A stretch of DNA of 44,123 nucleotides from a virus. Position 1 is the first letter of the stretch, and each line of letters begins with the position of its first letter. Positions 2,191-41,738 of the stretch are shown here, piece by piece. The notes beneath the pieces are model-generated. The model saw only the letters and a program-made list of their open reading frames with translations. It made no database searches and was not told the DNA's origin. The stretch is from the IMG/VR virus record IMGVR_UViG_3300010373_000016, positions 1 through 44,123 of that record; one strand, given 5' to 3'. The position numbers were made by a program, and so were the translations under genes.

Positions 2191-3839
2191 CCGCCATGAG
2201 ACTGACTGAGCAAGAGATCGAGATTCACCGCCGGCTTGTTACCGACTACGAATTTTTCGCGCGCCACATCCAGAAGATCGAGCCAAAGGATCTGACCGAA
2301 CTTGACGGCGACGTCTTGGCTCAGTACGACGCCCTACACGGCGAAGACTCCATAGCCGGGATGATCCCGCTTGTCCCTCACCCGGGACAAAAGAGACTTC
2401 TGGGATTCCGCACGGCGATGCTTGCGGAGTTGGGCTTAGTGCGCGCTGCCCTAGTCAAGCCCCGTCAGGTCGGTTGGTCAACAATCATTCAAGGATTAGC
2501 GAACTGGCTAGCCGGCAAGACGCCGGGAATGAAGATCCATATCGTCAGCCACAACGCCGAGTCGACCCGGAAATTCTTGCGGCGAGCTCGGAAGATGGCA
2601 CTTGCCGCACCACCAACGGTGACGCCCGCCAAGCAAGTCGAGAACAGCAAAGAATTGATTTTTGCCAACGGCGCAAGCTATTCAATAGCCACCGCCGGAT
2701 CTCCTGACTCGGTCCGTTCTGATAGTTTCCACTTTGGTCATTTCTCCGAAGAGGCATTCTGGCCTGATCCGATAGCTTCCACCGGCGCTATCATTCCCGC
2801 CTTGTCCGACGGCGTAGGCTCAGAGGGCTACCGGGAATCTACCGCGCAAGGCCGCGGTACGCCGTGGCACCTATTCATTCAAGAATGTCTTGCCGGCGAG
2901 AACCGTTGGAAGGTGTTCTTCGATCCGTGGTTTGCTCACCCGAAATATCGCTTACAGCCGCCGGAAGGTTGGCGGCCGGACGAAGAGGCTTTGGAAGCGC
3001 AGCGGCTGTATAACCTCGACATGGCTCAACTCTACTGGCGAGCCATGAAGATCAAAGACCTCCGCGCCTTGTGGATGTTTAAGCAAGAGTTTCCGGCGAC
3101 CATTGACGAAGCGTTCCAGTCCTCAGCCAGTACGCTATACAATCCTGACGCTGTTACGCAGGCGCGGAAGAACGGTAGGCTCGGCATAATCGCGCCGGAC
3201 GCGCACGCCCCGATCATTATTGGCTGTGACCCGGCACGCACCGGCGACCGGACGGCATTAGCTATCCGCCAGGGAAGCGTACTCCATGAAGTACGCCGCT
3301 GGCCCAAAATGGATGATATGCAATTGGTAGGTATTATAGCCAATCTGCTTACTAATCCATATAAAGGACAGCACATCAAGAAATGCTTTATAGACTACGC
3401 CATAGGTCAAGGTGTAGTCAGTCGTTTACGGGAGCTAGGATTTTTTATGCAAGTACAAGCGGTCCATTTTGCAGAAGCGCCGACCGATCCGCGCTTCCTG
3501 AACAAGCGCGCAGAAATGTTTTTCAGTATCCGCGATTGGCTTGGCGACTCAGGCTTACTCGTCTCGATTCCTGATGACGAAGCGCTAGCAGCCGACCTTT
3601 TAGCTATTCCTGATTTCCTACAATCAATAGGATCGGAAAAGATTAAGCTGGCATCGAAAGACGAAATCAAGAAGGAATACGGCAGATCGCCGGACCTTGC
3701 CGACGCCGTAGCCTTGACCTTTGCCTACCCGGTGATGGGCGAGCGGATAGCTGAGCTACAGCAGTTCGCTAGGCACAACTTAACCCATGTGCCGGGCAGC
3801 GAGATAGCTAAGTTGATGAGTGACTTTGAAGCGCGGTAA
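2187..3839 (+). CDS. terL: Terminase large subunit
   Basis: ATPase and nuclease of the DNA-packaging motor. The N-terminal ATPase has a Walker A-like KPRQVGWST (about residues 91-99) and a Walker B-like HFSEEAFW (about 185). The C-terminal RNase H-fold nuclease shows its acidic residues in IIGCDPARTGD, FIDYAIGQG and SPDLADAVAL. At about 550 residues it has normal length. The ATG at 2187 overlaps the preceding stop (ATGA), which suggests translational coupling. ATG 2172 is also in frame, with AAGGA abutting it, which is too close to act as a Shine-Dalgarno sequence. The stop overlaps an ATG in TAATG at 3837-3841. Confidence 0.95.
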   Translation: MTAMRLTEQEIEIHRRLVTDYEFFARHIQKIEPKDLTELDGDVLAQYDALHGEDSIAGMIPLVPHPGQKRLLGFRTAMLAELGLVRAALVKPRQVGWSTIIQGLANWLAGKTPGMKIHIVSHNAESTRKFLRRARKMALAAPPTVTPAKQVENSKELIFANGASYSIATAGSPDSVRSDSFHFGHFSEEAFWPDPIASTGAIIPALSDGVGSEGYRESTAQGRGTPWHLFIQECLAGENRWKVFFDPWFAHPKYRLQPPEGWRPDEEALEAQRLYNLDMAQLYWRAMKIKDLRALWMFKQEFPATIDEAFQSSASTLYNPDAVTQARKNGRLGIIAPDAHAPIIIGCDPARTGDRTALAIRQGSVLHEVRRWPKMDDMQLVGIIANLLTNPYKGQHIKKCFIDYAIGQGVVSRLRELGFFMQVQAVHFAEAPTDPRFLNKRAEMFFSIRDWLGDSGLLVSIPDDEALAADLLAIPDFLQSIGSEKIKLASKDEIKKEYGRSPDLADAVALTFAYPVMGERIAELQQFARHNLTHVPGSEIAKLMSDFEAR

Positions 3840-3841
3840 TG

Positions 3842-3868
3842 TTAAGCTACGCCCGGAGGATAAGCTAC
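3842..3868 (+). promoter_or_regulatory. Pair of TTAAGCTA-type motifs at a gene start
   Basis: TTAAGCTA (3842-3849) and ATAAGCTA (3860-3867) lie directly before the GTG start of the next gene, with the Shine-Dalgarno GGAGG between them. A nearly identical arrangement stands before the gene at 13654. Placement over a translation start inside an operon is what dispersed stoperator sites look like. Confidence 0.4.
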
Positions 3869-4171
3869 GTGGGATTTGGTGGATTATTTCATAGCGGTCC
3901 GTCTAGCGCTCAGATAAACGTGCAGAACGATTATCAAGCAGTAGCGGCAGCAGAACAAGCCCAGCAGCAACAACAGGCAGCCGCGAACGCGGCTGCGGCT
4001 GCGCAGGACAGACAAACTATCGCCACTACGCAGCAGCAGTTTTCTAGCTCCATTTCCAACAAAGCAGCTGAGGCCGCAGTGCAACTCGGAATCCTGAACT
4101 ATATCAAGACAAGTCCTGAAGGTCTTTCGAATAGTCCGAAGACTGGCAGGCTGACATTGTTGGGGAACTAG
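3869..4171 (+). CDS. Small Gln/Ala-rich virion-associated protein with GFGGLF start
   Basis: A protein of about 100 residues between TerL and portal. The start is GTG 3869, with GGAGG 9 nt upstream; an upstream ATG at 3839 is in frame but puts the conserved start inside the protein. It begins MGFGGLF, the same seven residues as the gp14-like internal protein at 13654. Residues about 30-60 are a Gln/Ala-rich helical stretch (AEQAQQQQQAAANAAAAAQ), followed by a Ser-rich piece and a short helix. Function is unknown. The shared N-terminus and the position suggest a head- or core-associated minor protein. Confidence 0.7.
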   Translation: MGFGGLFHSGPSSAQINVQNDYQAVAAAEQAQQQQQAAANAAAAAQDRQTIATTQQQFSSSISNKAAEAAVQLGILNYIKTSPEGLSNSPKTGRLTLLGN

Positions 4172-6022
4172 ATGGAAGCAGGCACACCTTACTACGGAGA
4201 CGGTAATTCGCTTGGTAATCTGACCATGCGGAAGTACCGACAGATGCTCACGCACCGTGACGGAATGCGGAACATCATCCGTTTGTTGTCCAAGTTCATT
4301 TTGCTGCGCAATGCTTGGTTTGGTGATTCAAGCTATCCAAATAGAGTGGTGCGGCTATCTGTTACTGACGTTTCCGACGATACCGCCATTGATGCCTCTC
4401 GTTCAGCTTCTACAGCTTTTGCCGCCGCGCTCTGGCCCAACGCCGAAGAATCCTTCGAAGCCGTCCCACATCCTTTAATGCGTACGTCAGTCGAAGGCGA
4501 AGCTTTGCTACTTGACGAGGAAGTGAAGCGTTACTATGACCACATGACACACAAATTCCGCCAGCCATTCGCAGAGGCGGATTCGAACTTTTTGATCTCT
4601 TGGGGCGAACACTGGGACGAACAGATCGTACTTGGCACCAGTGGTATTTACGCCGAAGAGGACGAGTATAACGACGAGATTCCATGCCGATTCAAGACTC
4701 TTTCGATTGAGACTTGCGTTATCGACGAAGGACCGGATCACAGAGTTGATACCTTCGCCATGGAGTACACATGGACCGTGCGCATGGTCGTCGAGAAGTA
4801 TGGCATCGAGAACTGTTCGGCTCAGCTGCAAGAGCTTTACGGCACACCGGAAGGTCAAGACAGCTACGTCAAGATCATCTGCATGGTGCGTCCGCGGACA
4901 GGCATTAGCCCGATGGCGGACAAACGCGAAAAGAAAAACAAGCCTTACGCTTATATTTGTATGGAAGTCGCCACGCTGAACGTGCTTTACGAAGGCGGCT
5001 TGGACGAATTGTCTGGGTTTATGGCGAGATTCCGTAAACGCCCCGGCGAACTTTACGGCCGTAGTCTTGCCATGGATGCACTACCGACCGTAAAAGAGCA
5101 GAACGTTCTGCGTCGCGGATTCAGCTTGGCGCTCGGCAAGCAACTCGATCCACCGATTGGCTTCCGTCAAGATCAACTTGGCGGTGCTGGCACCGTCGAT
5201 ATTTCGATGGGTGCCAAGGTTCCGATTTACGATACTGGCGTCATTCCGCAAAGCCGTCCGCCGGTCGAGCCGCTAATCACGGTTCCTGAGCCGCGTGTAG
5301 CTAATGAGCGGATGACGAATATCGAAGAGAAGATAAATCAGAAATTCTTACTCGATAAGTTGTTGGACTTTAACAACAAAACACGGATGACGCTTGGCGA
5401 AGCGCAACTGCGGACAGACTTCCGTAACCAGGCGCTCGGCAATTTATTCGCGCGTCAAATGACAGAAATATTGCACCCGCTCATTATGTGGGTAATCCGT
5501 CTGTACTGGCGGCGCGGATTCTGCGGACTACACCCGGTCAAAGACTTCGTCACTATCCAACTTATGAAGCAGGCAGGACAGCAGCCGCTAGTCATGCCAA
5601 AACCGGTGGCGGACTTCTACGACAAAACCGGCAAACTTCCATTCGCAATCCGGTTTACCTCGCCGGCAGCTCGCGCTATGCGCGCTGATGCACTTATGGG
5701 CCTCGAGAAGCTGACGAACTTCGTGCTGGCACTCGTGACCGGCGGCGCAGCCGAAGCGATGGATAATCTCGACGTCGACGAAACTGTAAGGCTCTATCAG
5801 CACCACGTAGGCGCACCGAACAAAGCACTGCTTCCGGCAGACAAGCGGGACAAGGCGCGGAAGATCCGGCAACAAGCGCAGGCGAATATCCGTAATCTCG
5901 AAGCGCAAGAACAACAATCAGTCGTCGCTAAGAACCAGGCGAAGGCAGCAAAAGACAACGCACAAGCCGGCGTAGGTCAAGCGCCACAGCAACAGGGAGC
6001 ATTAAACATTGGGGCGGCGTAA
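4172..6022 (+). CDS. Portal / head-to-tail connector protein
   Basis: A 616-aa protein of the T7 gp8-like connector family, which forms the dodecameric ring at the capsid vertex through which DNA is packaged. Family features are the N-terminal helical region (RQMLTHRDGMRNIIRLLSKF), the clip/stem region and a conserved core such as RFRKRPGELYGRS (about residue 290). The C-terminal tail (about 555-616) is charged, Gln/Ala-rich and probably helical, as in barrel-bearing portals. It starts immediately after the previous stop (TAGATG), with GGGGA upstream. It lies between terL and the scaffold gene, as expected. Confidence 0.92.
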   Translation: MEAGTPYYGDGNSLGNLTMRKYRQMLTHRDGMRNIIRLLSKFILLRNAWFGDSSYPNRVVRLSVTDVSDDTAIDASRSASTAFAAALWPNAEESFEAVPHPLMRTSVEGEALLLDEEVKRYYDHMTHKFRQPFAEADSNFLISWGEHWDEQIVLGTSGIYAEEDEYNDEIPCRFKTLSIETCVIDEGPDHRVDTFAMEYTWTVRMVVEKYGIENCSAQLQELYGTPEGQDSYVKIICMVRPRTGISPMADKREKKNKPYAYICMEVATLNVLYEGGLDELSGFMARFRKRPGELYGRSLAMDALPTVKEQNVLRRGFSLALGKQLDPPIGFRQDQLGGAGTVDISMGAKVPIYDTGVIPQSRPPVEPLITVPEPRVANERMTNIEEKINQKFLLDKLLDFNNKTRMTLGEAQLRTDFRNQALGNLFARQMTEILHPLIMWVIRLYWRRGFCGLHPVKDFVTIQLMKQAGQQPLVMPKPVADFYDKTGKLPFAIRFTSPAARAMRADALMGLEKLTNFVLALVTGGAAEAMDNLDVDETVRLYQHHVGAPNKALLPADKRDKARKIRQQAQANIRNLEAQEQQSVVAKNQAKAAKDNAQAGVGQAPQQQGALNIGAA

Positions 6023-6320
6023 GAAACAAGAGGTCGCAACACCTACGCTTATAGCGGAGCTGCAAGCACTGGGCTTGTCTGTCGAAGACGTTTTGCGCGC
6101 TTTCGACTCAGTAGCTAACACGCCGGACGGTGAGATTGTCTTGCGAGCGATCTTCGAGCTGTCGCGCTATGACAAAGGGGTCATGACCTACGACGCCAAC
6201 ACCAGTGATCTCAACGTCAACGCGACGATTTATAACCTATCAAAGCGCGACGTATGGCTGAAGTTTCGCCAGTATCTGACAGCGGAAAAACGTGCCCTAA
6301 TCGAAAACAAGGAGAACTAA
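6009..6320 (+). CDS. Bbp19-like small protein
   Basis: A 103-aa protein starting at TTG 6009, overlapping the portal end by 14 nt, with GGGAG 9 nt before the TTG. The pattern TPDGEIVLRAIFELSRY, then a short loop, then ...YNLSKRDVWLKFRQYLT resembles the Bbp19 family (known from phage BPP-1), found between portal and capsid genes of temperate podoviruses. Its biochemical role is not known to me. It is predicted soluble and helical. The start Met-Gly-Arg-Arg-Lys-Lys is strongly basic. Confidence 0.6.
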   Translation: MGRRKKQEVATPTLIAELQALGLSVEDVLRAFDSVANTPDGEIVLRAIFELSRYDKGVMTYDANTSDLNVNATIYNLSKRDVWLKFRQYLTAEKRALIENKEN

Positions 6321-6324
6321 TCAA

Positions 6325-7248
6325 ATGGATGGAGTCGCAGTAGAAACAGGTGGTGGCATTGCAGCCACCGTACCAACACAGGGAGCGCCCCCCGCGCCGG
6401 CACCAGCAATGCCAGCATTTATGGATATCGTGCCGGCGGACTTGAGAGAAGAACAGTTCGTAAAGGACTTTGCTAAGGCAGAAAATCCCTTTGATGCTCT
6501 TTTCAAAGGCTATAAAGGCGCTCAAGAGCTGATCGGCAGAAAGTCAAATGCTGTCGAGATCCCCGGCGAGAACGCAACGCCTGAACAGGTCCAAGCTTAT
6601 CGCAAAGCAGTCGGCGTTCCAGAAACGCCGGACGGTTATAAATTTTCTGAGCGTGACCTGTCGAAAGAACCGGAAGCTGTTCAGAAAGTTTGGAAGGCCA
6701 GCGGCAATGACGCGCTGTATAAAGTAGTGGCGCAGGCAGCGCACGAAGCTGGGATCCCGCCGGCTCAGCTGGCTAAGCTAGTCGAGACGGTCGAAGGGCA
6801 TAACCTGAACCAGATCAAGACTATGGTTGCCGCCGCACAACAAAGCGCCGAACAGCAAAACGTCAAGATCAAAGAGGACTTCGCCAAGTTCTATGGTGGT
6901 CAGGACAAAGCCGACGCCGCGCGCCGGATTGGCGAAGAGACTTTGAAAAAAGTCGGGATGCCCAAAGAGATCGCGCAGATGGGAGCGGACGCCGCCCTTA
7001 TCTGGTTGGCTAATACTTTGCACCAGAAGGTTTACAGCAATGACAAGCTTTCTACGAATGGCGGTGGCGCACCACAAATGACCAAACAGGAGCTCCACAA
7101 CAAGATCATGCAGGAACGCGCTAAAACCGATCCGCGCACCGGCAAGCCAATCTATTCAGATAAAGCGCATCCTCAGCACAAACAACACTTTGCCTACGTT
7201 CAATCCTTATATAAGGATCTACACGAAATGGGCACGTCAAGCGAATAG
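6325..7248 (+). CDS. Scaffolding protein
   Basis: A 307-aa acidic/helical protein directly before the capsid gene, the standard scaffold position. A Pro/Ala-rich flexible N-terminus (about 1-35) is followed by FVKDFAKAENPFDALFKGYKGAQ, a motif typical of podovirus scaffolds, then long amphipathic helices, and a basic C-terminal segment likely to contact the shell (TDPRTGKPIYSDKAHPQHKQ). GGAG lies before ATG 6325. It should guide procapsid assembly and then leave. The unit is closed by the perfect hairpin at 7281-7308. Confidence 0.85.
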   Translation: MDGVAVETGGGIAATVPTQGAPPAPAPAMPAFMDIVPADLREEQFVKDFAKAENPFDALFKGYKGAQELIGRKSNAVEIPGENATPEQVQAYRKAVGVPETPDGYKFSERDLSKEPEAVQKVWKASGNDALYKVVAQAAHEAGIPPAQLAKLVETVEGHNLNQIKTMVAAAQQSAEQQNVKIKEDFAKFYGGQDKADAARRIGEETLKKVGMPKEIAQMGADAALIWLANTLHQKVYSNDKLSTNGGGAPQMTKQELHNKIMQERAKTDPRTGKPIYSDKAHPQHKQHFAYVQSLYKDLHEMGTSSE

Positions 7249-8949: not shown

Positions 8950-8989
8950 ACCAAGCCTGACGGAACACACTACCCCGAAGAGGATGATC

Positions 8990-9592
8990 ATGCGCAAAAT
9001 TGTTCTAGCTATCTTGACTTTATTCACTGTCGCACTGCCGGCGGTGGCGCAGGTCAGTGAACCTCTGCAGTTCGAATATAAGTTCCGAGCACCGGCACTC
9101 TTCACCAAAACCGCCGTTTTCACGATTGGATCCGGCGGGCAGAAAATGGATAACTACGGCACCATTTTCCGCACGCAAGGAACTGTTAGCTCGGTTACTT
9201 CCGGCACGACTACCGTAGGCGTGACGCTTCCGGCTCGCACACTTATCTCGAACGGGCACGGTATTCGGCTGCGCGTTGCGGGACGCTGCGCAGCTAACGC
9301 TAACGCCAAGACGATTAACGTCGTATTCGGCTCGGCCACAATTCAAATTCTCAACGCCGTAGCGTCAAACGGCAAGGATTTTTATGCTGACGTGATGATT
9401 TACCGTACTGGACTGAATGCTCAGCAAATCTCGGTAGCCGGCTATGCCAACGGCGCGCTTATCGACAACCTGTCTACGGCGACTACGCAAGTAGAGACCG
9501 GCACACTTGCCTTGCAAGTGCAAGTCCCAGCCTCAACAGGTGCCGCCGACGTTGTGATCAACGACGTTTCGATTTTCGGTGAATCTGGGTAA
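8990..9592 (+). CDS. Secreted beta-rich protein in the head module
   Basis: A 200-aa protein with a clear Sec signal peptide: MRKIVLAILTLFTVALPAVA followed by Gln, an A-x-A cleavage site. The start at ATG 8990 fits AGAGG 6 nt upstream better than ATG 8984. The mature part is beta-rich with many Thr/Ser/Val/Gly repeats (TVSSVTSGTTTVGVTLPARTL), and its tail contrasts with ordinary soluble capsid genes. A virion protein assembled in the cytoplasm would not need Sec export. It may therefore be exported to the periplasm or surface during infection, or the signal-like segment may act in membrane contact. Function is unknown. Confidence 0.75.
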   Translation: MRKIVLAILTLFTVALPAVAQVSEPLQFEYKFRAPALFTKTAVFTIGSGGQKMDNYGTIFRTQGTVSSVTSGTTTVGVTLPARTLISNGHGIRLRVAGRCAANANAKTINVVFGSATIQILNAVASNGKDFYADVMIYRTGLNAQQISVAGYANGALIDNLSTATTQVETGTLALQVQVPASTGAADVVINDVSIFGESG

Positions 9593-10327: not shown

Positions 10328-13210
10328 ATGGCGGTAAAAAATCTCGCCGCGCTACTCAACTTCGTTGGCGGGGAAATCTCGCCGCAGATTGCTGCGCGTA
10401 CAGATATCGAACTGCTTAATAAGTCTCTCGCTCGCTGCGAGAATTTCATCTGCCTGCCACAAGGCGGCTCGGCATACAGGCCGGGTACGTATAACGTCGG
10501 CATGACCAAGCTAAACAGTTCTGCATTTCTGATACCGTTTCAATTTAGCGCCGCAGACGCGCTCATGATTGTGGCGTCGAATCGGGTTTTCCGGTTCTAT
10601 CGAAATGACGCCGTCGTGCTAAACACGGCGGTCAGCATTATCCAAATCACGCAAGCAAACCCGGCGCTCGTCTACGCGCCCGGGCACGGTTTCGTTAATG
10701 GCACTGAAGTGTATATTTCCGGCGTTGGCGGGATGAACCAGCTTAACGGACGCTTCTTTATTGTCGCCAACGCAGTCAATAAGGCTACGACGATAAGTGC
10801 GATCACGAAGGCAAACCCTGGCGTGTTTACCGCCAATGGCCACGGGCTGAGCAATGGTCAATACGTCACCATTAGCGGTGCCGCGGGCATGACTCAGGTA
10901 AACGGAAATTGGATAGTACAGAATGCTACTACTAACACGTTTACGGTCGAATCCTTGACTGGCGTTCCTCTCAACACGACGAGTGATCCCACCTATACCG
11001 CCAATAGCGCGAGCGTCGACGGAAGTAATTTCACGCTGCAAGATCAGTTCGCCAATAATATCAATTCAACCGCGTACGGCGCCTTCACGAGCGGCGGCAC
11101 AGTCGCCAGCATCTACGAGCTGGCGACACCATACAACACAGCGGACCTTTCATTTATTCGCACGGCGCAGAGTGCCGACGTAATGTATTTGACCTGCTAT
11201 AACGAAGTGGTGGGTAATTCCTACAACCCGCGTAAGCTAGTCAGAAATGGTTTCACCAACTGGACGCTCAATACCTACAAACGGAAAAATGATCCGTTCC
11301 CGTCCGTAGCGCACACGTCCTTTACGCCGACGAAGATAACGAAAGCGGTTGGCTGTACCGTCACAGTCTCTAGCACTAACGGCTTGTCGGCTGGCGACAT
11401 TGTTTACGCTTTAAATATTGGCGGGATGATCGAACTCGACGGGCAGTTTTTCCAGGTCGGCGCCGTCACTGCTAAGACGTTCGAGCTACTTGACTCCGAT
11501 GGGAACCCGGTAGATTCGACAGGATTCACTACATTTACATCCGGCGGCACGTTTACCAGGCATTTACGCGATCCCGCCTGTTGCGGATACTCCGCCGACG
11601 GGCGACTTTGCCTAGCTGCCACTGAGCAGAATCCAGAGGGCTTTTGGGGATCGCGAACGCCCAAAGGCATTCTGACCCGTTACGATGATTACACCATCTC
11701 CAGTAAATCGAGTTCGACAGATCCCACCCTAGCAATGGCGTTTAGCTTCTCGCCGGTCAACAACACCATTGACATGATTAGAGAAATGGTTCAGTTCTCG
11801 GGTATGTTCGCGTTGCTCGGAGCCAGTTCGATCCGACTAGTTTACGGCGCTCAACAAGGGCAGCCGGCAACGCCAATTGCGATCAACGTATTACCGACGA
11901 TCCAAGGTGCAGCTCGAGTAAAACCGCTAGTCATTAACTGGGATTTGATCTTTGTCGACGTGAACGGACAGCGGTTGCGCGGGCTGCAGTACAACCTTGC
12001 CTATCAGACATTTCAGGCGAACGATTACAATCTGTCTTCTCCGCACTTCGGACAGGAATCGCCATTCATAAAATTGGCTTACGTTAAAGGCACGCCGGAA
12101 ATGGTTTATGTCCTGAGACAAGACGGCATCGTGTTGGCGTTCACGTTCAACAACATCGAGAATATTGCCGGTTGGTCAAGGATTATTCCAGGCGGTGGCG
12201 GCCAGGTCTTGGACATCGGCACGATCCGCAAATCAAACGGGACTGATGAACTTTGGATGATCGTTCAGCGGACTTTGAACGGTCAGACGTTTACTACCGT
12301 CGAAGTCATGGACGTGCAGCCGATTATCCCGTCTCGAGATTCATTTTTCACCGGCGGCTACAAAATCAATCCGGATACAGCGAAAGCTACCGATGACGCC
12401 AACTGGCAAGCTGCCGCGTGGGAAGCGCTCAAAGCTACGACATTCCTCGATTGCTCTCTGACATACGACGGCACCGCCCGCGGCGCTGCGGCTGGAGCAA
12501 ACATTACTATCACAGGTGACGCCACTACTGCCGGCAATACTGTCACGCTGACGGCGAGCGCTAGCGTGTTCCAAGCCAGCGACGTGGGTTCCCAATTCTG
12601 GAAGTACTACACGTCAACCGGCGCCGGCGGAGGCAGATTACAGATTACCGGATATACGTCAGGCACTTCCGTGCAAGCGTATGTCAAAGCGCCGTTCGAC
12701 AACAATAACGCTATCAACGCTGGTAGCTGGGCATTTGCCGTCAATCAGCTTTTCGGTCTTGATTGGTATAACAATAGCCAGGTGAATATCCAAGCCGACG
12801 GCGGCGGACAGCCAGCGCAGACAGTCACCAATGGCAGTATCAACCTGAACATTTACGCTGGCAAGATTCAAGTAGGATTCGGCTATACCGGGCGTATGGT
12901 GACGCAGAATATATCTCTTGGACAAGGAACAGATAGCAAACCGAGAAACATAAAGCATATTTACGCTAGGTTCCTGAATACAATTGGCTGTCAGATTGGG
13001 CCGGATTCGTACATCTGCCCACAGGTCGTGAACAACAAAGCGAACCAGATTCCAGACCGGCCGCCGGCGCCGTTTACTGGAATGCTAAGACTGCGCCAAT
13101 TGGATAAGTGGCAGGACAGCATGAAGCGGGCGACGGTTCTCCATACGGATCCAACTCCCTGCACGATACTTGCTCTGGAGTTCGAAGGCTATGTCACCGA
13201 CCCACCGTAA
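10328..13210 (+). CDS. Tail tubular protein B (gp12-like nozzle)
   Basis: A 960-aa large beta-rich tail protein. The start, AALLNFVGGEISPQIAARTDIELLNKSLARCENFICLPQGG, is characteristic of the T7 gp12-like nozzle family. Three inserted repeats of the type ITKANPGVFTANGHGLSNG ... GMTQVNG occur at about residues 98-140, 155-200 and 335-390 and look like small surface beta domains. These domains may bind carbohydrate or fibre partners, which is inference. Normal T7 gp12 is about 790 aa, so the extra length comes from these inserts. Confidence 0.88.
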   Translation: MAVKNLAALLNFVGGEISPQIAARTDIELLNKSLARCENFICLPQGGSAYRPGTYNVGMTKLNSSAFLIPFQFSAADALMIVASNRVFRFYRNDAVVLNTAVSIIQITQANPALVYAPGHGFVNGTEVYISGVGGMNQLNGRFFIVANAVNKATTISAITKANPGVFTANGHGLSNGQYVTISGAAGMTQVNGNWIVQNATTNTFTVESLTGVPLNTTSDPTYTANSASVDGSNFTLQDQFANNINSTAYGAFTSGGTVASIYELATPYNTADLSFIRTAQSADVMYLTCYNEVVGNSYNPRKLVRNGFTNWTLNTYKRKNDPFPSVAHTSFTPTKITKAVGCTVTVSSTNGLSAGDIVYALNIGGMIELDGQFFQVGAVTAKTFELLDSDGNPVDSTGFTTFTSGGTFTRHLRDPACCGYSADGRLCLAATEQNPEGFWGSRTPKGILTRYDDYTISSKSSSTDPTLAMAFSFSPVNNTIDMIREMVQFSGMFALLGASSIRLVYGAQQGQPATPIAINVLPTIQGAARVKPLVINWDLIFVDVNGQRLRGLQYNLAYQTFQANDYNLSSPHFGQESPFIKLAYVKGTPEMVYVLRQDGIVLAFTFNNIENIAGWSRIIPGGGGQVLDIGTIRKSNGTDELWMIVQRTLNGQTFTTVEVMDVQPIIPSRDSFFTGGYKINPDTAKATDDANWQAAAWEALKATTFLDCSLTYDGTARGAAAGANITITGDATTAGNTVTLTASASVFQASDVGSQFWKYYTSTGAGGGRLQITGYTSGTSVQAYVKAPFDNNNAINAGSWAFAVNQLFGLDWYNNSQVNIQADGGGQPAQTVTNGSINLNIYAGKIQVGFGYTGRMVTQNISLGQGTDSKPRNIKHIYARFLNTIGCQIGPDSYICPQVVNNKANQIPDRPPAPFTGMLRLRQLDKWQDSMKRATVLHTDPTPCTILALEFEGYVTDPP

Positions 13211-19100: not shown

Positions 19101-19407
19101 ACGCATGGGGACGACGCTAACCTTTGGCAATATGCTGCCCGGCGCGAGCACGATAGGTGAGTCAGTTGTGGCGGCGGCTTCCGGCGGACGCTATGACCCT
19201 GACGTTTCCACGCCAGTAAGTCGGGTTGTGATCGGCGCGGCGAAAGCCGCAGGAATGGCGTCAGCGATGGCGACCGGGCACACGCCGCTGTCATTTCATC
19301 ACATCTTGCAAACCGTCATCGGCGTTTACCAGGCGCAGGCGTTGATCGGCAAAGGTAAACCAGTCGCGCCGATGATCTGGCTCGACAAAATTTTTGGAGG
19401 AAAATAA
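16129..19407 (+). CDS. gp16-like large internal core protein
   Basis: A 1092-aa ejection protein in the gp16 position, which in T7 spans the inner membrane during genome entry. Residues about 85-110 and 140-200 contain Gly/Ala-rich hydrophobic segments (GVHVLPMAGIGLGATALGTL, FAGLGFGALTMGTLATG) and another lies near 305-325. These could insert in the membrane. The N-terminal lytic transglycosylase domain of T7 gp16 is not visible: there is no lysozyme-like Glu motif, and the N-terminus is a Gln/Pro-rich linker. The C-terminal half is helical. AGGA precedes ATG 16129. Peptidoglycan cutting, if present in the particle, must come from another protein. Confidence 0.8.
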   Translation: MANDQQTATIPPELQGALQQVQQANAGSSRTPLATVPDGLPDELSQQLKGVAEQEPPRVSPTGQTIEPQPGWQNTWKGITGNLVGGSYGAVKEAAAGLAIGGGLSDFEQQKKQVEDDIYLRAQADAEDYANGPGHNLLTDIIGGGVHVLPMAGIGLGATALGTLATAPFLGPAAPFAGLGFGALTMGTLATGQGIYRHMKQGWSKDHALAGGLFSGAVAAAMQFVGMGASEKAGADTLATLASSPTFRQAVTEVTGHIAKSIGVNVGLAGVTSVADGAVDYLLAAKPKTMQQALSAVAQEFYQSSVAGVLPAAIIGGGAAALGIRARMSATEQHIEVLRKALDHATQLKTKAEQPTLEGHVEESVSADDLEAQRKNLEAGIRRSTIIRAGLAIKTAPNAGAKVLDILANGGTPDEAAEALIDSEPVDKPTGEKDRIRSFNIYKDTAGLNLDGLLRYVFQHVPPAEQEALVRALSIDQASNEAEVNRMLYQQLADTLLKEATGLDDAGLTKLMHDAATTKIKGKWSDGRTIQAPDEYGVMHVMSVDEAISYLLWAENSDAQAALYAPDGNNFPRDYEITLTEAIKALPEGQKYLDALEGFRKFYLQMGKTLKEVHDRATGDDLELQINHGGTIRRVGTVQADMTEIESRLPGQEYVANNGERVESTHNATIERGALTTAIAKRGAFANAHSHAVATANYEANVERAGFWNQFVNDPDVVQGITGKWNKGLLERIRDRYRDQVHGVPAAQQGSIAEIDNIIRANRVSVLGSNPIYTLQHWFTLINFFLARDNEGVQIPFNELSDGFQHFFLNKIEAVNEIQSWDEVKARYADVNTVGGIASGERTPEEVNYEKNALQWFQKGDMPALEAGTYAVYHVILNRTGDAVLAKQTAIQAFKDCLASGSSQQWTDLTTNKITKLFTAFEQPTIRLRQHSFEAKLTANNFPTAKHFQDQLRAELVARTASTVFLAPKLAVAVADAAILHNPSTLFNTMLRMGTTLTFGNMLPGASTIGESVVAAASGGRYDPDVSTPVSRVVIGAAKAAGMASAMATGHTPLSFHHILQTVIGVYQAQALIGKGKPVAPMIWLDKIFGGK

Positions 19408-19408
19408 C

Positions 19409-20104
19409 GTGACCGTACCGAATACCAACTATATGAATAGCTATACCGGCGATGGCGTTACGACGCAGTTTAGCTATACGTGGAATATCACCGAATCTCA
19501 GATGTTGGCGGTCTATGTCAACAACGTTTTGCAGGTGCAAGGAACTGACTATTCATATACAACGAATATCAATACTAGCCAGGTCGGCGGCAATATTACC
19601 TTCAGCTCGGTTTATAACGGCGTGAGCCACGTTGCGGGTCCGCCGGCAAACGGTGCGAATATTCAGATCATCCGCCAGTCAAACCAACTCCAGTCGAACA
19701 ACCTGAACAACAATCAGGCCATGCCGCCGTCAACAGTGATGGCGATGATCGATAAGCTGACCATGTTGGTTCAAGACGCGCTACGCTACTATCTGTCGCC
19801 AGCTACTACGTTTGCTGCGGGGACGCTCTATACGTTGCCTCATAAGCTAGGGTACGTTCCCACTCGTCTGCAATATCTTCTTATATGCACCGTAGCAGAA
19901 GCTGGCTACTCTGTTGGGGACACGATTGACATAACGCCTCAGTTTAATGCGCTTGGCGCGGCTCAAGTCGATATGACAAATATATACGTTAGGACTCTAA
20001 GCGCGCTTGGCGCTATAAACGTTCCGCACAAAACTACGTTCGCTTCAACCGCGCTGACACTTCCTGCTAATTGGCAATTACAAGTTGCCGCTGATGTGAC
20101 GTAG
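19409..20104 (+). CDS. Tail fibre protein with gp17-like N-terminus
   Basis: A protein of about 231 aa starting at GTG 19409, with GGAGG 8 nt upstream and only one base after the previous stop. Residues 1-110 match the T7 gp17-type virion attachment domain (YTGDGVTTQFSYTW ... VYVNNVLQVQGTDYSY ... GANIQIIRQS). The C-terminal part (about 130-231) is a short beta domain and not a long fibre shaft. It is therefore either an adaptor to which another receptor-binding protein docks, or a short spike. The 1218-aa protein downstream is a candidate partner. Confidence 0.85.
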   Translation: MTVPNTNYMNSYTGDGVTTQFSYTWNITESQMLAVYVNNVLQVQGTDYSYTTNINTSQVGGNITFSSVYNGVSHVAGPPANGANIQIIRQSNQLQSNNLNNNQAMPPSTVMAMIDKLTMLVQDALRYYLSPATTFAAGTLYTLPHKLGYVPTRLQYLLICTVAEAGYSVGDTIDITPQFNALGAAQVDMTNIYVRTLSALGAINVPHKTTFASTALTLPANWQLQVAADVT

Positions 20105-20505: not shown

Positions 20506-20832
20506 GTGTCAGACGAGCGACAGGAGATAGAAACCAATGGAAGCGTTACTTCCGGTAGCGATTCAGTATGTTCTTGCGGGAACTCTCGTTTTGTCGCTCT
20601 CTGCGCTGTTTTTTGGAAGACCGTCCGAACCGACTTCGAACACCTCCCACAGTCTGATCGATCCGCCGCGATAAAGATCCTCGCCAACTGGATTGGTGTG
20701 ATCTGCCTGGCGTTCGTAGTCTGTTCCTTTATCTATCCCGACCGGGTGAATACGGCAATTGCTTCGCTCGGTTCACTGGCAACAATCATTGCGCTAATCG
20801 TGCAGCACAAAGCAGGCAAGAAAGATGGCTAA
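20506..20832 (+). CDS. Holin, probable (two membrane segments)
   Basis: A 108-aa protein starting at GTG 20506, with GGAG 7 nt upstream. An N-terminal soluble part of about 55 aa is followed by two hydrophobic segments, WIGVICLAFVVCSFIY and AIASLGSLATIIALIVQ, and a short basic tail HKAGKKDG. It lies directly upstream of, and overlaps, the endolysin start, the standard holin position. Holins form holes in the inner membrane to trigger lysis. The N-terminal cytoplasmic part is longer than usual and contains, in another frame, a small membrane ORF (20537-20674). If only that ORF is real, this gene could start later. Confidence 0.72.
   Translation: MSDERQEIETNGSVTSGSDSVCSCGNSRFVALCAVFWKTVRTDFEHLPQSDRSAAIKILANWIGVICLAFVVCSFIYPDRVNTAIASLGSLATIIALIVQHKAGKKDG
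20537..20674 (+). CDS. Nested small membrane protein inside holin gene
   Basis: A 45-aa ORF in the frame shifted by one relative to the holin and wholly contained within it. It starts at ATG 20537, with AGGAG 10 nt upstream. It encodes one strong membrane segment near the N-terminus (VAIQYVLAGTLVLSLSALFF) and a polar Pro/Ser-rich tail ending IDPPR. Embedded membrane proteins are known in phage lysis cassettes (for example the Rz1 arrangement), so an antiholin or pinholin partner is possible. The start context is good but the embedding makes it a candidate only. Confidence 0.42.
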   Translation: MEALLPVAIQYVLAGTLVLSLSALFFGRPSEPTSNTSHSLIDPPR

Positions 20833-21313
20833 TCAAGTTCTCACGGAAAAGAAGGCTAAGCAAATATCTGAGTGTGGTCTCAAGCTACTCAAAGAGTACG
20901 AAGGACTGCGCCTTGAAGCCTACAAAGATTCTGTCGGCGTCCTGACGATTGGCTATGGGCATGCAATTAAGCCCGGCGAGTCTTTTCCTGACTGGAAGAT
21001 TACGACCGAAGAGGCGGAAGAACTGCTTCTGAAAGACGTAGCTTGGGCCGTCGCTGTGGTCAACGCTACGCCGAATGCCGACAAGCTGAACGCCAATCAA
21101 TTCGACGCGCTAGTTTTGCTCGTCTTCAACATTGGCGCTGAAGCCTACAAGGAATCAACTATCCGCCGGTACGTTGCCAGTCAGCGCTACGAATGTGTGC
21201 CCGATCAGTTCATGCGCTGGGTCAGAGGCAAAGTTAATGGCGTGATGGTAAAGCTTCCCGGCTTAGTAAACCGTCGCAAAAATGAGGTTGTTCTATGGAA
21301 ATCAAAAGCCTGA
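20825..21313 (+). CDS. Endolysin, GH24 lysozyme
   Basis: A 162-aa T4-lysozyme-type muramidase that cuts peptidoglycan at the end of infection. The catalytic triad is visible: Glu in KEYEGLR, Asp in AYKDSVG and Thr in LTIGYGH. The conserved WRW-like C-terminal core is RFMRWVRGKVNG...GLVNRR. Full length for the family. There is no SAR or Sec N-terminal segment, so it depends on the holin for release. It overlaps the holin end by 8 nt and the next gene by 19 nt. Confidence 0.93.
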   Translation: MANQVLTEKKAKQISECGLKLLKEYEGLRLEAYKDSVGVLTIGYGHAIKPGESFPDWKITTEEAEELLLKDVAWAVAVVNATPNADKLNANQFDALVLLVFNIGAEAYKESTIRRYVASQRYECVPDQFMRWVRGKVNGVMVKLPGLVNRRKNEVVLWKSKA

Positions 21314-21631: not shown

Positions 21632-21913
21632 ATGTCATTACCCGGGATGCCGAAGTGCTATAGCCAAGCTATAACTAACGTGGCTACTACGGTGAATATC
21701 CGTCTCTGTCGCGCGTTAGTCATCCAGGTCGACAGCGGACAAGACATCTACGTCACCTTCGACGGAACCACGCCGACAGTGAACGGCGCAAACTGCCTCA
21801 AGATTCCTGCCGGAACTCAGTGGCAGAGTCCGCAAAACATCAATATGGGTATCGACTCGTTTAAATACATCGGATCCGCTGCGACGGGCCACCTGTCCGT
21901 TTTCGCGGCTTAA
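21632..21913 (+). CDS. Hypothetical small beta-rich protein
   Basis: A 93-aa protein with a strong Shine-Dalgarno AGGAGG before ATG 21632. The segments RALVIQVDSGQDIYVTFDGTT and GANCLKIPAGTQWQSPQ suggest a compact beta sandwich like small phage decoration or tail-tip proteins. It has no signal peptide. It sits between two genes for exported proteins and 12 nt before the 1218-aa gene, so it may be a partner of that product. Family is not recognised. Confidence 0.68.
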   Translation: MSLPGMPKCYSQAITNVATTVNIRLCRALVIQVDSGQDIYVTFDGTTPTVNGANCLKIPAGTQWQSPQNINMGIDSFKYIGSAATGHLSVFAA

Positions 21914-21925
21914 AGAGGAAAAATC

Positions 21926-24900
21926 ATGAAAAAATTCATAGCCCTTCTAGCGGCACTGCTCACGTTCTGCAGTGCCGCATACGCGCAGCAATACAACGTC
22001 CTGCCGACCGGGACACAGGTAAACGTTATCCCGATTGACGCTACTTCAGGGCTGCCGGCAAATATCGGATCTCGAGTCACGACCACAGCATTCCAACCGA
22101 CTGGATATACGGCGGCGCCTTCGCAGCCAGACGCTTCTATGGTTGTCGGATCTGATGGCCGGATCTATTTGCCGGTCTATAGCGGCACGGTATACGCCAT
22201 AGCCGCCATGAGTACCGGCGGTCAGTTCTCTGTCTACACATTGCCCACAAACAACGCTGTTGGTCAGCTCACGCTTGGCTCTGACGGGAATGTCTACGGT
22301 ACCTATGCAGGTCTTAATAAAATATTCCAGTTGACGACAGCTGGCGTTTTTACTGAGTTCACTTTGAACGTAGGCACGACGTGCTACGGCATCATTTCGA
22401 ACTCCGCTGACAGCAACCTTTACGTAGCGAGCGCTACCGGCGTAGTGATGCAAGTGAACACGTCCGGGTCCGTTCTCGCTACTGTGAACATGACTGGCAC
22501 CTACAACAATGGACAGCTTGCGCTTGACTCACAGGGGCAAGTTTGGGGCGGTGAATCTGGCAAGTTGTTTACGGTTACGACCGCGCCTGCAATCACTGAG
22601 TATTCGATAACCGGAACGCCGACAGCTATCTGTGCAGATCCCACCACTACCACTGTGTGGGCTATGGATGCTGCAGCCGGGACTATTTTTAACGTCGACG
22701 CGCAAACGGGAACGGTCTTATCCAGCGTACCGTTCGTGACGACGCCCGCCACTGGCGTAACAAATTGGGGCAACCTCACGGTGTTTGGCGGCAATTTGTA
22801 CGCCACTGAAGGATCGATCAACCAGCTTGTCTCGATCAATACTTCCACGCTGGATCAAACTCAGTACGCACTTCCGCAGATTAAGAACCTGACCGGAATG
22901 CTAGTCGGATCAGACGGTCTTCTTTACGCCTGCTCAGCGTCGACTGGATTCCTTTATCGTCTGGAATTTTCCGGCGCTCTACAAGTAGTAACGGCTGACG
23001 TGGTATCAGGCGCGGTGCCGATGCAAGCAGCCGCCGTCACTAACAGCAATGGCGCTATTCTCAAAGTCGGCGGCACACCTACCGCTATCGTCAGCATAAC
23101 TGGCAGCTTCACAGCAACCGTAAACTTTGAAGCTTCATTTGACAATTCCAACTGGGTAGCAATCGCGGGAGCCAAAGTAGGCACTGGTGGAATCAGCACG
23201 ACCGCCGCCGGCGCCGGCGACTGGGTTATTCCGATTCAGGGCTATCAGTTCTTACGTGCTCGGATCAGCGGGCGCACTGCTGGCAGTGTCACCGTCAACG
23301 GCTACACATCGACCTCTCTTTCGGTGCCTCTGCCTGGCAGTACCAACGTGATCGGTTCGGTGACTCAATCCGGTACTTGGAACGTCGGACTTAGCGCGGG
23401 TAGTAACGTAATTGGCGCCGTCACTCAATCTGGTACCTGGAACATTGGCAGCATAAGTACTCTGCCTTCGATTCCCACAGGGTCGAATGTCATTGGTGGT
23501 GTCACTCAATCTGGTACTTGGAATATCGGCAGCATAACGACGCTGCCCGCATTGGCGACAGGCAGTAACGTAATCGGCGGCGTCACTCAATCCGGTACCT
23601 GGAATATTGGTAGCATAACTACTCTACCTTCCATTCCTACCGGATCGAATACTATCGGCGCCGTTACCCAGTCCGGTACTTGGACGGTACAGCCGGGTAA
23701 CACGGCGAACACCACGCCATGGGTTGTGAACGACACGACCGCAAATCTTTCTCAGGCTTCGACTACGAGCGGCCAGAAAGGCAATTTGATAATGGGTGCT
23801 GCAAGCACCACTAACCCGACGTTGACGAACGGGCTCACGTATCCGATCAGCCTTACGCAGAACGGAGCTATAAGGGTAGACGCTTCGCTAACATCAAGCA
23901 CGCTGCCAGTCAGTCTGAGCGGTACAAATAATTTCCAACTTCTCGGCATAGCCAAAGGAACGACTTCGGCGCTGAATGCCACCGTGACCAGCCTCGACGC
24001 CAACCATAACGGGCTTGACGTAAACGTGGCGAATGGCGCGACTGTCAACGTGCTTGGCGGGAATAACACAGCGCCGCTGTTCGTCAACCCGACGATCAAT
24101 GCCTTCAACACTCCAAGCCAGAGCACGTACATCGCTACGGCTCAGTCCATTTGCGCAGGAAACGATGGAAACATTTGGGGCCTCGAACCGGGCGCGAACA
24201 AAGTTTTCAAAATGACGACAAGCGGGAACTTCACCGAGTACACGATCCCGACTGCCAACTCACAGCCCACCTGTTTGATCCAGGGCAGCGACGGCAATAT
24301 GTACGGCACTGAATCCGCCACTACAGCGAACAAGGTCTTTAAGCTCACGACTACCGGAACGTTCACCGAATTTGCAGTAACGACGGCCTCGGCAAAGCCG
24401 TTCGCGATCTGCCAAGGTACGGACGGAAACATTTACGGTGTCGAGTCGAACACAAACAAAGTGTTCAAGATGACTACTTCGGGGACGTTCACTGAGTTCT
24501 CCACCGGCGTAACGAGCTTTGTCCCTGCCGATATTTGCCAAGGTGCTGACGGACTACTTTACGTAGCTGGAAACGGCGGCACTAACCAGATGTTTTCCAT
24601 GACTACGGGCGGAACGTTCACGCAGCTGGGAGCCGGCGGAAGCAACTACGTTTGCCATGGCGCTGATAATTGCATTTACTTCTCTGGCGGATCTCAGGCT
24701 GGAGTCATTTACCGCTATGACGGGCACGCTGTTACTTCGTTTGACTCAACAGCCTTTTCTCTGACCCCAACAAAAATGGCTGTAGCGTCGGACGGCAACT
24801 TCTACGGCGGCGTCAGCGCGGGAGGGATAGGCCGAGGCGGGGTTGGCGGCCAGCTAATTCAAGTCACTCCAGAAGGCGTGACGTCGCTTTTCCCTTCCAC

Positions 24901-25582
24901 TTCGTTTGACGGCGCAATCGTCAGTACTTGTGAAGGAACCGACGGTTTTCTTTATGCGCTTAGCGAAGACACTGTTGGGTCAGTCTATAAGGTCTTTCAA
25001 ATTAAGCAGGCACAAGCCTTCGTAAATTTAGCGCAGGGCGGCCGTGTCCTTTCCCAAACAAACGCAGTACCCGTCAAACTAGCAGCGCAGGACAAATCGA
25101 CTTACGTAGCGACAACTACAGCTACGTGGGCAGTGGCTTCCGCGGGTACTGACGTTGTCGTACTTCAAGGGGCTCTTTTCCGTACTGTAAAAGTTCTCCG
25201 CATCCGAGTTTGGGGGAACCAGAGCACGGCGGCTGCAACTGCTTTCTCTATAGTGAAGCGCACTACCGCAAACAGCGGTGGCACCTCCACTAGCGTACTG
25301 CCGCTGTCCATGGACGACGCCAACCCTGCAGCAAATTCAGTGTTTACGCAGTACACAGTAAACCCGACTACGCTTGGGACTGCAGCAGCGAGCATAAGCG
25401 CGAGAGTCGTTACCTCAAACACCCTTCCTACCGGACCTTATGCCATTTACGAAGCGCCTGTAGGGGGGCAGCCGATTACTTTAAGGTCGCCTGCAGCAGG
25501 CACAGCGGAATACTTGGCGATCAACTGCAACGGTAACCCGCCAACAAACCTAGTTGTAGAAATCACTTGGACTGAGGAATAG
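21926..25582 (+). CDS. 1218-aa exported double beta-propeller protein
   Basis: A very long protein with a Sec signal peptide (MKKFIALLAALLTFCSAAYA followed by Gln-Gln). Two blocks of propeller repeats (about residues 60-360 and 740-1080) follow the pattern GSDGNVYGT ... NKIFQLTTAGVFTEFT, like virginiamycin B lyase (Vgb) or GloVer repeats. Between them lie five or six copies of NVIGGVTQSGTWN with ISTLPS-type linkers (residues about 470-590), a beta-helical spacer seen in phage adhesins. The C-terminus (about 1090-1218) is a beta sandwich. It is at the end of the late operon, where receptor-binding proteins usually are. It could be a tail adhesin, a surface protein shown by the infected cell, or an enzyme. 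GAGG precedes ATG 21926. The gene overlaps the opposite gene by 20 bp. Confidence 0.85.
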   Translation: MKKFIALLAALLTFCSAAYAQQYNVLPTGTQVNVIPIDATSGLPANIGSRVTTTAFQPTGYTAAPSQPDASMVVGSDGRIYLPVYSGTVYAIAAMSTGGQFSVYTLPTNNAVGQLTLGSDGNVYGTYAGLNKIFQLTTAGVFTEFTLNVGTTCYGIISNSADSNLYVASATGVVMQVNTSGSVLATVNMTGTYNNGQLALDSQGQVWGGESGKLFTVTTAPAITEYSITGTPTAICADPTTTTVWAMDAAAGTIFNVDAQTGTVLSSVPFVTTPATGVTNWGNLTVFGGNLYATEGSINQLVSINTSTLDQTQYALPQIKNLTGMLVGSDGLLYACSASTGFLYRLEFSGALQVVTADVVSGAVPMQAAAVTNSNGAILKVGGTPTAIVSITGSFTATVNFEASFDNSNWVAIAGAKVGTGGISTTAAGAGDWVIPIQGYQFLRARISGRTAGSVTVNGYTSTSLSVPLPGSTNVIGSVTQSGTWNVGLSAGSNVIGAVTQSGTWNIGSISTLPSIPTGSNVIGGVTQSGTWNIGSITTLPALATGSNVIGGVTQSGTWNIGSITTLPSIPTGSNTIGAVTQSGTWTVQPGNTANTTPWVVNDTTANLSQASTTSGQKGNLIMGAASTTNPTLTNGLTYPISLTQNGAIRVDASLTSSTLPVSLSGTNNFQLLGIAKGTTSALNATVTSLDANHNGLDVNVANGATVNVLGGNNTAPLFVNPTINAFNTPSQSTYIATAQSICAGNDGNIWGLEPGANKVFKMTTSGNFTEYTIPTANSQPTCLIQGSDGNMYGTESATTANKVFKLTTTGTFTEFAVTTASAKPFAICQGTDGNIYGVESNTNKVFKMTTSGTFTEFSTGVTSFVPADICQGADGLLYVAGNGGTNQMFSMTTGGTFTQLGAGGSNYVCHGADNCIYFSGGSQAGVIYRYDGHAVTSFDSTAFSLTPTKMAVASDGNFYGGVSAGGIGRGGVGGQLIQVTPEGVTSLFPSTSFDGAIVSTCEGTDGFLYALSEDTVGSVYKVFQIKQAQAFVNLAQGGRVLSQTNAVPVKLAAQDKSTYVATTTATWAVASAGTDVVVLQGALFRTVKVLRIRVWGNQSTAAATAFSIVKRTTANSGGTSTSVLPLSMDDANPAANSVFTQYTVNPTTLGTAAASISARVVTSNTLPTGPYAIYEAPVGGQPITLRSPAAGTAEYLAINCNGNPPTNLVVEITWTEE

Positions 25583-33854: not shown

Positions 33855-33929
33855 TGGTAGCGGGAATCGGGATCGAACCGATGACCTAACGGATATGAAC
33901 CGCTCGCTCTGCCTCTGAGCTATCCCGCA
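33855..33929 (-). tRNA. tRNA with CAT anticodon (Met/Ile2 type), CCA encoded
   Basis: All arms fold: D-stem GCTC/GAGC, anticodon stem AGCGG/CCGTT, loop TTCATAT and T-arm ATCGG TTCGATC CCGAT. The acceptor pairs at positions 2-7, but positions 1 and 72 are T and T, an unpaired end, and CCA is encoded (33855-33857). CAT can be elongator Met, initiator, or Ile2 with lysidine. The unpaired 1-72 resembles initiators, but the three G-C pairs of the initiator anticodon stem are absent. It lies between the Acb2-like gene and the 89-aa gene. Confidence 0.9.
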
Positions 33930-40428: not shown

Positions 40429-41199
40429 TTAACAGGTCACGTCGAGGAACTCGCTTCCAGGCGTTTTCATTTCGATCAGAACTTGCACAGCAAACTCAGC
40501 CACGTCTACCAGAATTTGCTCACGAGCAGCAGCAGCAGCAGCAGCAGCATCAGCAGCACGAGCAGCAGCATCAGCAGCAGCAGCAGCATCAGCAGCATCA
40601 GCAGCAGCAGCAGCACGAGCAGCAGCATCAGCAGCAGCAGCAGCATCAGCAGCATCAGCAGCAGCAGCATCAGCAGCAGCACGAGCAGCAGCAGCAGCAG
40701 CATCAGCAGCATCAGCAGCAGCAGCATCAGCAGCAGCACGCCCGCTAGTCAGATCGACTGCCTGGCTGCACAAGGCTGCATGCGCTTCCAACGCTTCACG
40801 GTGCGCTTGTATTGGATGTACCGAGGCGGCTGCGCGTAGTGCGATTGGCGTTAGTGTATTGATAGTGTACATGGCTATCTTTTCGACAAATAGAACATAA
40901 TTGAAATTGTCTCTGGTTCCGAGTGATGCTAACGCTAAGCGCTTCAATCCAGCTGCGCGGGATTCCGGCGAAGTCCAGCCGTAAGCGTCATTCATACCGA
41001 TATTGAATGATGTCAAAATCTCGTGTACGCAGCTGGATTTATCCGCTGGCATTTCGGACTGCGGGTCGTCGAAAATCAAATGAATAGCTTGCATGACGCA
41101 CACATCTCCGGGCCAGTCATTCTCGCCTTTACCGCTGCAGAGTCCTTTCTTGAGCAAGTCTGTGAGCTTGCAGGTGTTGGCTTGATTCAATTCGATCAT
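40429..41199 (-). CDS. Phage protein with conserved N-terminus and Ala/Asp repeat helix
   Basis: A 256-aa protein starting at ATG 41199 with GAGG upstream. Residues about 1-150 have the pattern of a common phage small-protein family (DVCVMQAIHLIFDD ... PADKSSCVHEILTSFNIGMND ... AAGLKRLALASLGTRD). Residues about 155-226 are almost only Ala with Asp and a few Arg (AAADAAAADAADAAAAAAR and so on), encoded by a repeat of GCT codons. This should form one very long alanine-rich helix of about 100 Angstrom. The last 30 residues are a normal helix. Function is unknown; ice-binding-like or structural roles are only guesses. Confidence 0.78.
   Translation of the reverse strand: MIELNQANTCKLTDLLKKGLCSGKGENDWPGDVCVMQAIHLIFDDPQSEMPADKSSCVHEILTSFNIGMNDAYGWTSPESRAAGLKRLALASLGTRDNFNYVLFVEKIAMYTINTLTPIALRAAASVHPIQAHREALEAHAALCSQAVDLTSGRAAADAAAADAADAAAAAARAAADAAAADAADAAAAADAAARAAAAADAADAAAAADAAARAADAAAAAAAAREQILVDVAEFAVQVLIEMKTPGSEFLDVTC
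40525..40738 (-). repeat. GCT/GAT trinucleotide microsatellite in coding DNA
   Basis: About 70 consecutive codons on the minus strand are nearly all GCT (Ala) with GAT (Asp) and CGT (Arg) at irregular spacing. Larger duplicated units, such as DAADAAAAADAAARAA, occur twice. Slippage changes the helix length but keeps the frame, since the unit is three bases. This is extraordinary in a genome with otherwise normal complexity. Confidence 0.95.
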
Positions 41200-41300: not shown

Positions 41301-41624
41301 TTATTCTTCAATCCAATCACTCGCGTGAACTTTGCAGCGTGACGACATGCCGCAAATGCAATCGGGATCTGTCTCAATGCCGAGGCGCTCAGCCAGCGCT
41401 ATCTGTAGACGCTGAATGTCCGCGCGTGTGCTGCGACATGCTTCTAAATGATTGCCGATCTTACGCCCGTCAATTTCGTTGTCATCATAAGCTAGGCGTT
41501 CAGCAGCAACGAGCAAGGTCGCAACGTAGTCCACTGCGTTTACTGCTTCGCTCAGCTGCTCCATAGCTTCGCGAAGCTGGTCGCGAACCTGAGGGCTTTT
41601 CGTTTTCAGCTCCAACTTTCCCAT
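41301..41624 (-). CDS. Hypothetical helical protein with Cys/His end, 107 aa
   Basis: Start ATG 41624, with GGAG 9 nt upstream; the longer in-frame reading through the tRNA-like gene is not credible. The protein is helical (VRDQLREAMEQLSEAVNAVDYVATLLVAAERLAY), ending in a possible zinc site CICGMSSRCKVH. It lies directly downstream of the Leu-like tRNA and upstream of the Ala-rich gene. Function is unknown. Confidence 0.65.
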   Translation of the reverse strand: MGKLELKTKSPQVRDQLREAMEQLSEAVNAVDYVATLLVAAERLAYDDNEIDGRKIGNHLEACRSTRADIQRLQIALAERLGIETDPDCICGMSSRCKVHASDWIEE

Positions 41625-41656
41625 TGTCAATATCTCCCGATTGATGTTATAGTGGG

Positions 41657-41732
41657 TGCAGGTGGTGGGATTCGAACCCACAAATTGCCCGTACTGCGAA
41701 TACGTTGCGTCTGCCATTTCCGCCACACCTGC
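41657..41732 (-). tRNA. tRNA-like gene with Leu-type body and CGC anticodon
   Basis: All helices form: acceptor GCAGGTG/CACCTGC (7 bp), D-arm GCG/CGC with a Leu/Ser-type large loop, and T-arm GTGGG TTCGAAT CCCAC. The anticodon arm (ACGTA/TACGG, loop TTCGCAG) gives CGC, which reads Ala GCG. The variable region is only 7 nt although the body looks like a class II tRNA-Leu. The 3' end reads A then CCC, not CCA. It may be a recoded, degenerate or suppressor-like tRNA. Confidence 0.75.
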
Positions 41733-41738
41733 ATAAAG

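Follow-up and report, generated by a model that had tools for sequence, protein, structure and literature searches.

A Phage Protein With Two Vgb-Type Propellers and a Predicted Sec Signal Peptide at the End of a Late Gene Block

Introduction

A phage genome deposited in IMG/VR encodes, at the end of a late gene block, a 1218-aa protein that combines two Vgb-type beta-propellers with phage modules, a C-terminal jelly roll and a signal peptide, all of them recovered by computation. Our tentative reading is a non-catalytic adhesin that a temperate T7-like phage expresses late, exports through Sec and adds to its particles at lysis or later; to this leading account we give somewhat less than an even chance. 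The signal peptide shifts the question from the propellers themselves to the role of an exported virion-type protein.

The Phage Genome and the Propeller Gene

The window, which is the whole 44,123-base stretch analyzed (record IMGVR_UViG_3300010373_000016), is very probably a complete phage genome because it begins and ends with the same 123 bases (1–123 and 44001–44123, a perfect direct repeat). Pfam comparisons identified a tyrosine integrase (PF00589) and a head-tail connector (PF12236), and PHROG comparisons an internal virion protein and a T7-type tail protein (10328–13210). The rightward genes are the late genes, with opposite-strand ORFs beginning at ~26,870, and the propeller ORF (21926–25582, + strand) is the last of this rightward block of structural and lysis genes. 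It lies shortly downstream of a co-directional endolysin gene (20825..21313, +; PF00959 120 bits, phrog_7), which follows a gene for a short, 236-aa T7-type tail-fiber protein with an N-terminal anchor (19394..20104, +; phrog_1640 and other tail-fiber families). The immediate neighbor, which stops 12 nt short of the propeller gene, encodes a 93-aa protein without a signal peptide (21632..21913, +; a weak Fn3_assoc match under the cut-off). The ATG start is preceded, 6 nt upstream, by a ribosome-binding site read from the sequence (AGAGGA, 21914..21919, +), and the ORF is confirmed as a real gene with a good ribosome site. Promoter-like sites around it show no excess (2 observed vs. 5.1 expected).

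When genome contigs were searched with an alignment of four terminases, a single locus was returned, in Inquilinus limosus (33%), a match too distant for naming a host. Elsewhere in the window, an ORF at 40429–41199 (− strand) has a long alanine/aspartate-rich stretch that arises from short repeats in the DNA, with 22 overlapping in-register copies. There are also two predicted tRNA genes (41653–41733 and 33855–33929, called as Ala-CGC and Met-CAT), within the first of which an ORF (41301–41726) starts.

Protein Architecture

The initial annotation had described a double propeller around a repeat spacer; both propellers and the spacer stand, but the signal peptide and three modules had been overlooked, namely a beta-sandwich-like module, a TSGQKGNL module and the C-terminal jelly roll. 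The protein begins with a putative Sec signal peptide (MKKFIALLAALLTFCSAAYA followed by QQ; residues 1–20, 21926..21985, +), called by rule. Propeller 1 (residues ~61–354, 22106..22987, +) is followed by the beta-sandwich-like module (residues ~353–473, 22982..23344, +), whose fold is suggested by sequence and which is also present in other phage proteins; it had tblastn matches in 8 viral loci, the best being L037 (41% over 102 aa). The spacer (residues 474–587, 23345..23686, +) consists of five N[VT]IGxVTQSGTW[NT] repeats, of the NVIGxVTQSGTWN type, starting at residues 474, 494, 521, 548, and 575, and its DNA repeats are spaced 60 and 81 nt. The TSGQKGNL module (SGQKGNL...GAIRV; residues 608–651, 23747..23878, +) was recognized through its match to a phage protein in another locus (L174:20-1498, 50% over 44 aa). 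Propeller 2 (residues ~706–1057, 24041..25096, +) and the predicted jelly roll (KRTTANSGGTS...WTEE; residues ~1058–1218, 25097..25579, +) complete the chain.

The jelly roll was modeled with a pLDDT of 91.2. Its top matches among viral structures were uncharacterized phage proteins (first TM 0.86 on the query), and those in the PDB (Z 6.7 to 9.0) were mostly capsid jelly rolls, with a Haloferax virus turret, a Helicobacter phage cement protein and a phage tail fiber in the same range; at the level of a model, these PDB matches indicate fold class only. We found 53 other non-redundant copies of this domain, and no Pfam, PHROG or PDB sequence family covers the 54 members: at E up to 1 the members had only scattered Pfam matches (best 0.013), and families of PHROG were matched by single members alone (E 0.007 and 0.01). 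The domain has thus far gone uncatalogued.

An adhesin-like build, as first proposed, is supported by these modules. The outcome named in advance as speaking against the initial description, a model without propellers or a best match to ordinary tail fibers only, was looked for and did not occur. A gp17-type N-terminal tail-anchor domain is absent from the 1218-aa protein, the sole PHROG match of which is phrog_34644 (unknown function), and judged by its sequence the protein is not a gp17-type fiber.

The Propellers and Their Relation to Vgb

Each propeller has seven blade repeats, as read from alignments. The identity of propeller 2 is certain at the level of sequence, with a PF24684 (Vgb_lyase) match of 140.3 bits (E 7.4e-41; cut-off 50) and PDB sequence matches to 2qc5 (E 1.8e-35) and 2z2n (E 1.6e-33). 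Propeller 1 scores 47.1 bits (E 2e-14), under the same cut-off of 50, and its AlphaFold model is all beta (pLDDT 84.2, pTM 0.85) and gives the propeller that had been anticipated, with the Vgb structures 2qc5 and 2z2n as the top Foldseek PDB matches (TM 0.83–0.84). By fold, both propellers are assigned to the Vgb family, the first through its predicted model and the second through its sequence.

Membership in the family of Vgb enzymes is another matter. A lyase function had been left as an option, and the catalytic residues were searched for. Glu268 of Vgb, which we take to be a catalytic residue, aligns with Val866. In the same alignment with 2z2n, His270, marked as catalytic by the H270A structure 2z2p, corresponds to Ala868. 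The position equivalent to H270 is not a histidine in any blade of either propeller, and the whole protein contains 3 histidines. Because the Vgb catalytic histidine is missing from all blades, the 1218-aa protein, as its residues indicate, is not a streptogramin lyase. We therefore hold an active Vgb-type lyase, conferring resistance to streptogramins or cleaving some other cyclic peptide, to be most improbable, despite the 140 bits of the PF24684 match. The Vgb-type propeller fold also serves other chemistry, for example in CylK, according to the part of the source available (PMC8916777), and "no lyase" is therefore not the same as "no activity."

The closest propellers found were those of other viral contigs (L174, 43–46%; L173, 41%), followed by a Deinococcus plasmid (38.9%); the initial proposal that the propellers were captured from a host gene is unproven. 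Of 8 viral stretches containing the Vgb blade motif, 6 (L169, L170, L171, L173, L174, and L175) code for propellers of the Vgb type and 2 for none. The blades of L175 (7200–10934) lie within a large protein with a match to a virion structural family and no called signal peptide. Many blades are likewise found within a 1215-aa protein of L169 (L186 in full; 3381–7025), again without a called signal peptide; the part of this protein that was compared matched no PHROG family, and the L186 stretch holds two signal-peptide genes. L171 encodes a 340-aa propeller protein with an N-terminus that by eye resembles a signal peptide. L174 has the TSGQ and middle-type modules in one gene and a propeller in another close by, elements that form a single gene in the window.

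Distribution of the Modules

Counts in IMG/VR were 79 stretches for the spacer motif and 81 for the jelly-roll motif. When pieces of the protein were compared by tblastn with these motif loci and L003–L007, the spacer was found in 59, the jelly roll in 82 and the middle module in 8, with 0 matches for the propellers. On these counts, the protein is an assembly of modules common among phages, to which two rare ones are added. The whole protein used as a query against viral contigs returned no relative, nor did the portal, and its exact architecture was not seen elsewhere in the viral contigs searched. Against phages, the whole protein matched 2 Streptococcus records (31.5%); in tblastn searches of the phage collection, the middle and spacer region matched 2 records and the C-terminal domain none. 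Neither of the two records L003 and L004 matched the 1218-aa protein.

Predicted Signal Peptides and Putative Exported Gene Clusters

The N-terminus has classic n-, h-, and c-regions and an AYA-QQ site, which we read from its AxA pattern as cleavage after residue 20; with these regions and a signal-peptidase I site, the protein is placed in the Sec-exported class by prediction. Signal peptides were predicted with a home-made rule rather than with SignalP; the rule misses PhoA and Bla, and its first version, which called LacY, was replaced. In control genomes it called 3 of 53 lambda genes (lom, Rz, and bor) and 0 of 30 in T7. Among 40 window ORFs, those at 8984, 20142 (weak), and 21926 were called as signal-bearing. 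The first of these (8984..9592, +; rule-based) lies between the head genes and tail tubular protein A, and its counterpart in L007 (8698–9315, 41.7%) also has a signal peptide.

Signal peptides were called in 12 of 47 non-redundant spacer proteins (p 1.3e-5) and in 11 of 47 non-redundant jelly-roll proteins (p 6.6e-5), vs. 42 of 795 other ORFs in the same loci; the jelly-roll count still includes L131, and L034 looks like a further miss of the rule. For the tree and the neighbor count, visual inspection overrode two calls, L131 being set to signal-less and L165 to signal-bearing. Among non-redundant loci in which the member has a same-strand neighbor, an exported one was present in 12 of 21 with a signal-bearing member vs. 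5 of 68 without. Counted by gene, 16 of 35 neighbors were exported vs. 5 of 104 (p 9.8e-8), with 19 of 686 among genes further off; 35 of 130 loci had been removed as redundant, and the count before removal was 20 of 47 vs. 7 of 175. An AxA-Q-type tetrad occurred in 15 of 21 signal-bearing members and in 18 of 41 other signal-bearing ORFs; among ORFs without a signal peptide the figure was 207 of 1465.

Mapped onto the jelly-roll tree, the presence of a signal peptide in 13 rows requires 10 changes, at least 5 of them forced by supported branches, and equally few changes arose in 37 of 500 shuffles; the jelly roll of the window sits on a long branch (2.06) with unsupported placement. Signal peptides are thus scattered over the tree and clustered by locus. 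Several of the genes concerned lie among virion genes, with signal-bearing jelly-roll proteins between the major head protein and tail tubular protein A (L044), between the major head protein and the head-tail adaptor (L143), after the major head protein (L154) and with a portal gene nearby (L097). For L164, L165, and L101, comparison of the neighbors tested gave no family with a known function. Three large signal-peptide genes stand in a row in L101 (3338–9408) and in L164 (5676–12333), possibly in the places of tail-fiber genes.

A search of the open literature with limited terms found no report of signal peptides on clustered fiber-type genes of tailed phages, which does not prove absence. 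In the accessible portion of one Klebsiella phage paper, a signal peptide is given for an internal virion protein as well as for a spanin, an endolysin and a hypothetical protein; that of a second contains a gene-wide statement of none and then names an endolysin and a holin.

Possible Roles of the Protein

In the sequence of events that we favor, the signal peptide would direct the protein to the periplasm, the mature protein would fold outside the cytoplasm, the jelly roll may mediate oligomerization and the propellers could act as binding discs for host-surface ligands. The protein would then wait extracytoplasmically with other exported parts and, in the preferred ending, become a distal receptor-binding element of the particles at lysis or later. 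An adhesin is suggested by the recurrence of the spacer and jelly roll in many phage proteins, and a structural role by Vgb propellers in structural-type proteins elsewhere (L175, and the context of L174). An exported protein cannot be assembled into a tail within the cytoplasm; joining after lysis has a precedent in T4 fibers and P22 tailspikes, free forms of which bind particles in vitro. These are non-exported proteins, so the joining of an exported one is proposed by analogy. Against particle joining, the phage has a separate short fiber gene (19394–20104), the 93-aa neighbor has no signal peptide and the PDB matches of the jelly roll are middling (best Z 9.0) and mostly to capsid proteins.

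The exported adhesin might instead bind the receptor of its own phage on the infected cell and would thereby guard against superinfection and against the loss of progeny on debris. By analogy this is a credible but rather unlikely role, with the signal peptide and late position in its favor, and a receptor-binding protein would need to gain only a signal peptide, a single step. Its precedent is Llp of phage T5. According to the part of the source available, this exported protein, whose gene follows that of the receptor-binding protein, keeps phages from adsorbing to infected cells, and such proteins also keep them from adsorbing to lysed cell fragments (PMC9586334). Llp is, however, a small lipoprotein, whereas the window protein has 1218 aa and no lipobox (Cys15 is preceded by Phe), and multi-gene exported clusters suit a complex better than a single blocker. 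We lean slightly toward particle joining over receptor blocking because the exported genes come in sets, several of them among virion genes.

Both of these roles presume export, and an ordinary virion adhesin assembled in the cytoplasm, with the hydrophobic N-terminus serving only as an anchor or an inefficient signal, would agree with the virion-type look of all remaining modules and with the many relatives that have no signal peptide. Propeller receptor-binding proteins are reportedly known, for example in phage phi11. We nevertheless judge this improbable, given the full n/h/c structure with its AxA-Q site, the tree-scattered and locus-clustered signal peptides, and the virion proteins of lambda and T7, which are signal-less by the same rule. 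More doubtful still is a lysogenic-conversion moron, a surface adhesin made for the lysogen in the manner of lambda lom or bor: an integrase is present (PF00589), and lambda lom, an outer-membrane protein with a signal peptide, sits between tail-fiber genes, but an own promoter is not indicated for the propeller gene, which starts 12 nt behind a co-directional gene, and several relatives lie among head and tail genes.

Among known systems, the 1218-aa protein shares with Vgb (PF24684; 2qc5, 2z2n) the seven-bladed fold and repeat sequence in both blocks, and differs from it in the missing catalytic His/Glu, the two propeller copies and the fusion to phage modules and a signal peptide. Like T7-type fibers and phage receptor-binding proteins, it has a modular beta-rich build, a gene placed after internal virion and fiber genes, and modules common to structural-region proteins; unlike T7-type fibers, it has a Sec signal peptide and no anchor domain was found in it. 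With T5 Llp it would share being phage-encoded, exported and possibly partnered with a receptor, as predicted, although Llp is small and lipidated. Lambda Lom is likewise a signal-peptide protein coded among tail-fiber genes, but is a 206-aa outer-membrane protein.

Implications

The apparently non-enzymatic use of a Vgb propeller suggests that the name alone should not label such genes as resistance genes. In the textbook view, tailed phages assemble in the cytoplasm. It may be, although we consider it unlikely on balance, that in several lineages of tailed phages whole sets of fiber- or decoration-type proteins are Sec-exported, with the particle finished or the cell surface armed outside the cytoplasm, and that the window protein is one member of such a set. 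The 1218-aa protein is a novel version of the phage adhesin-like proteins, the surprising part being the exported clusters. If true, exported clusters of virion-type genes in many uncultured phages would imply either that particles are completed outside the cytoplasm or that receptor shielding is widespread.
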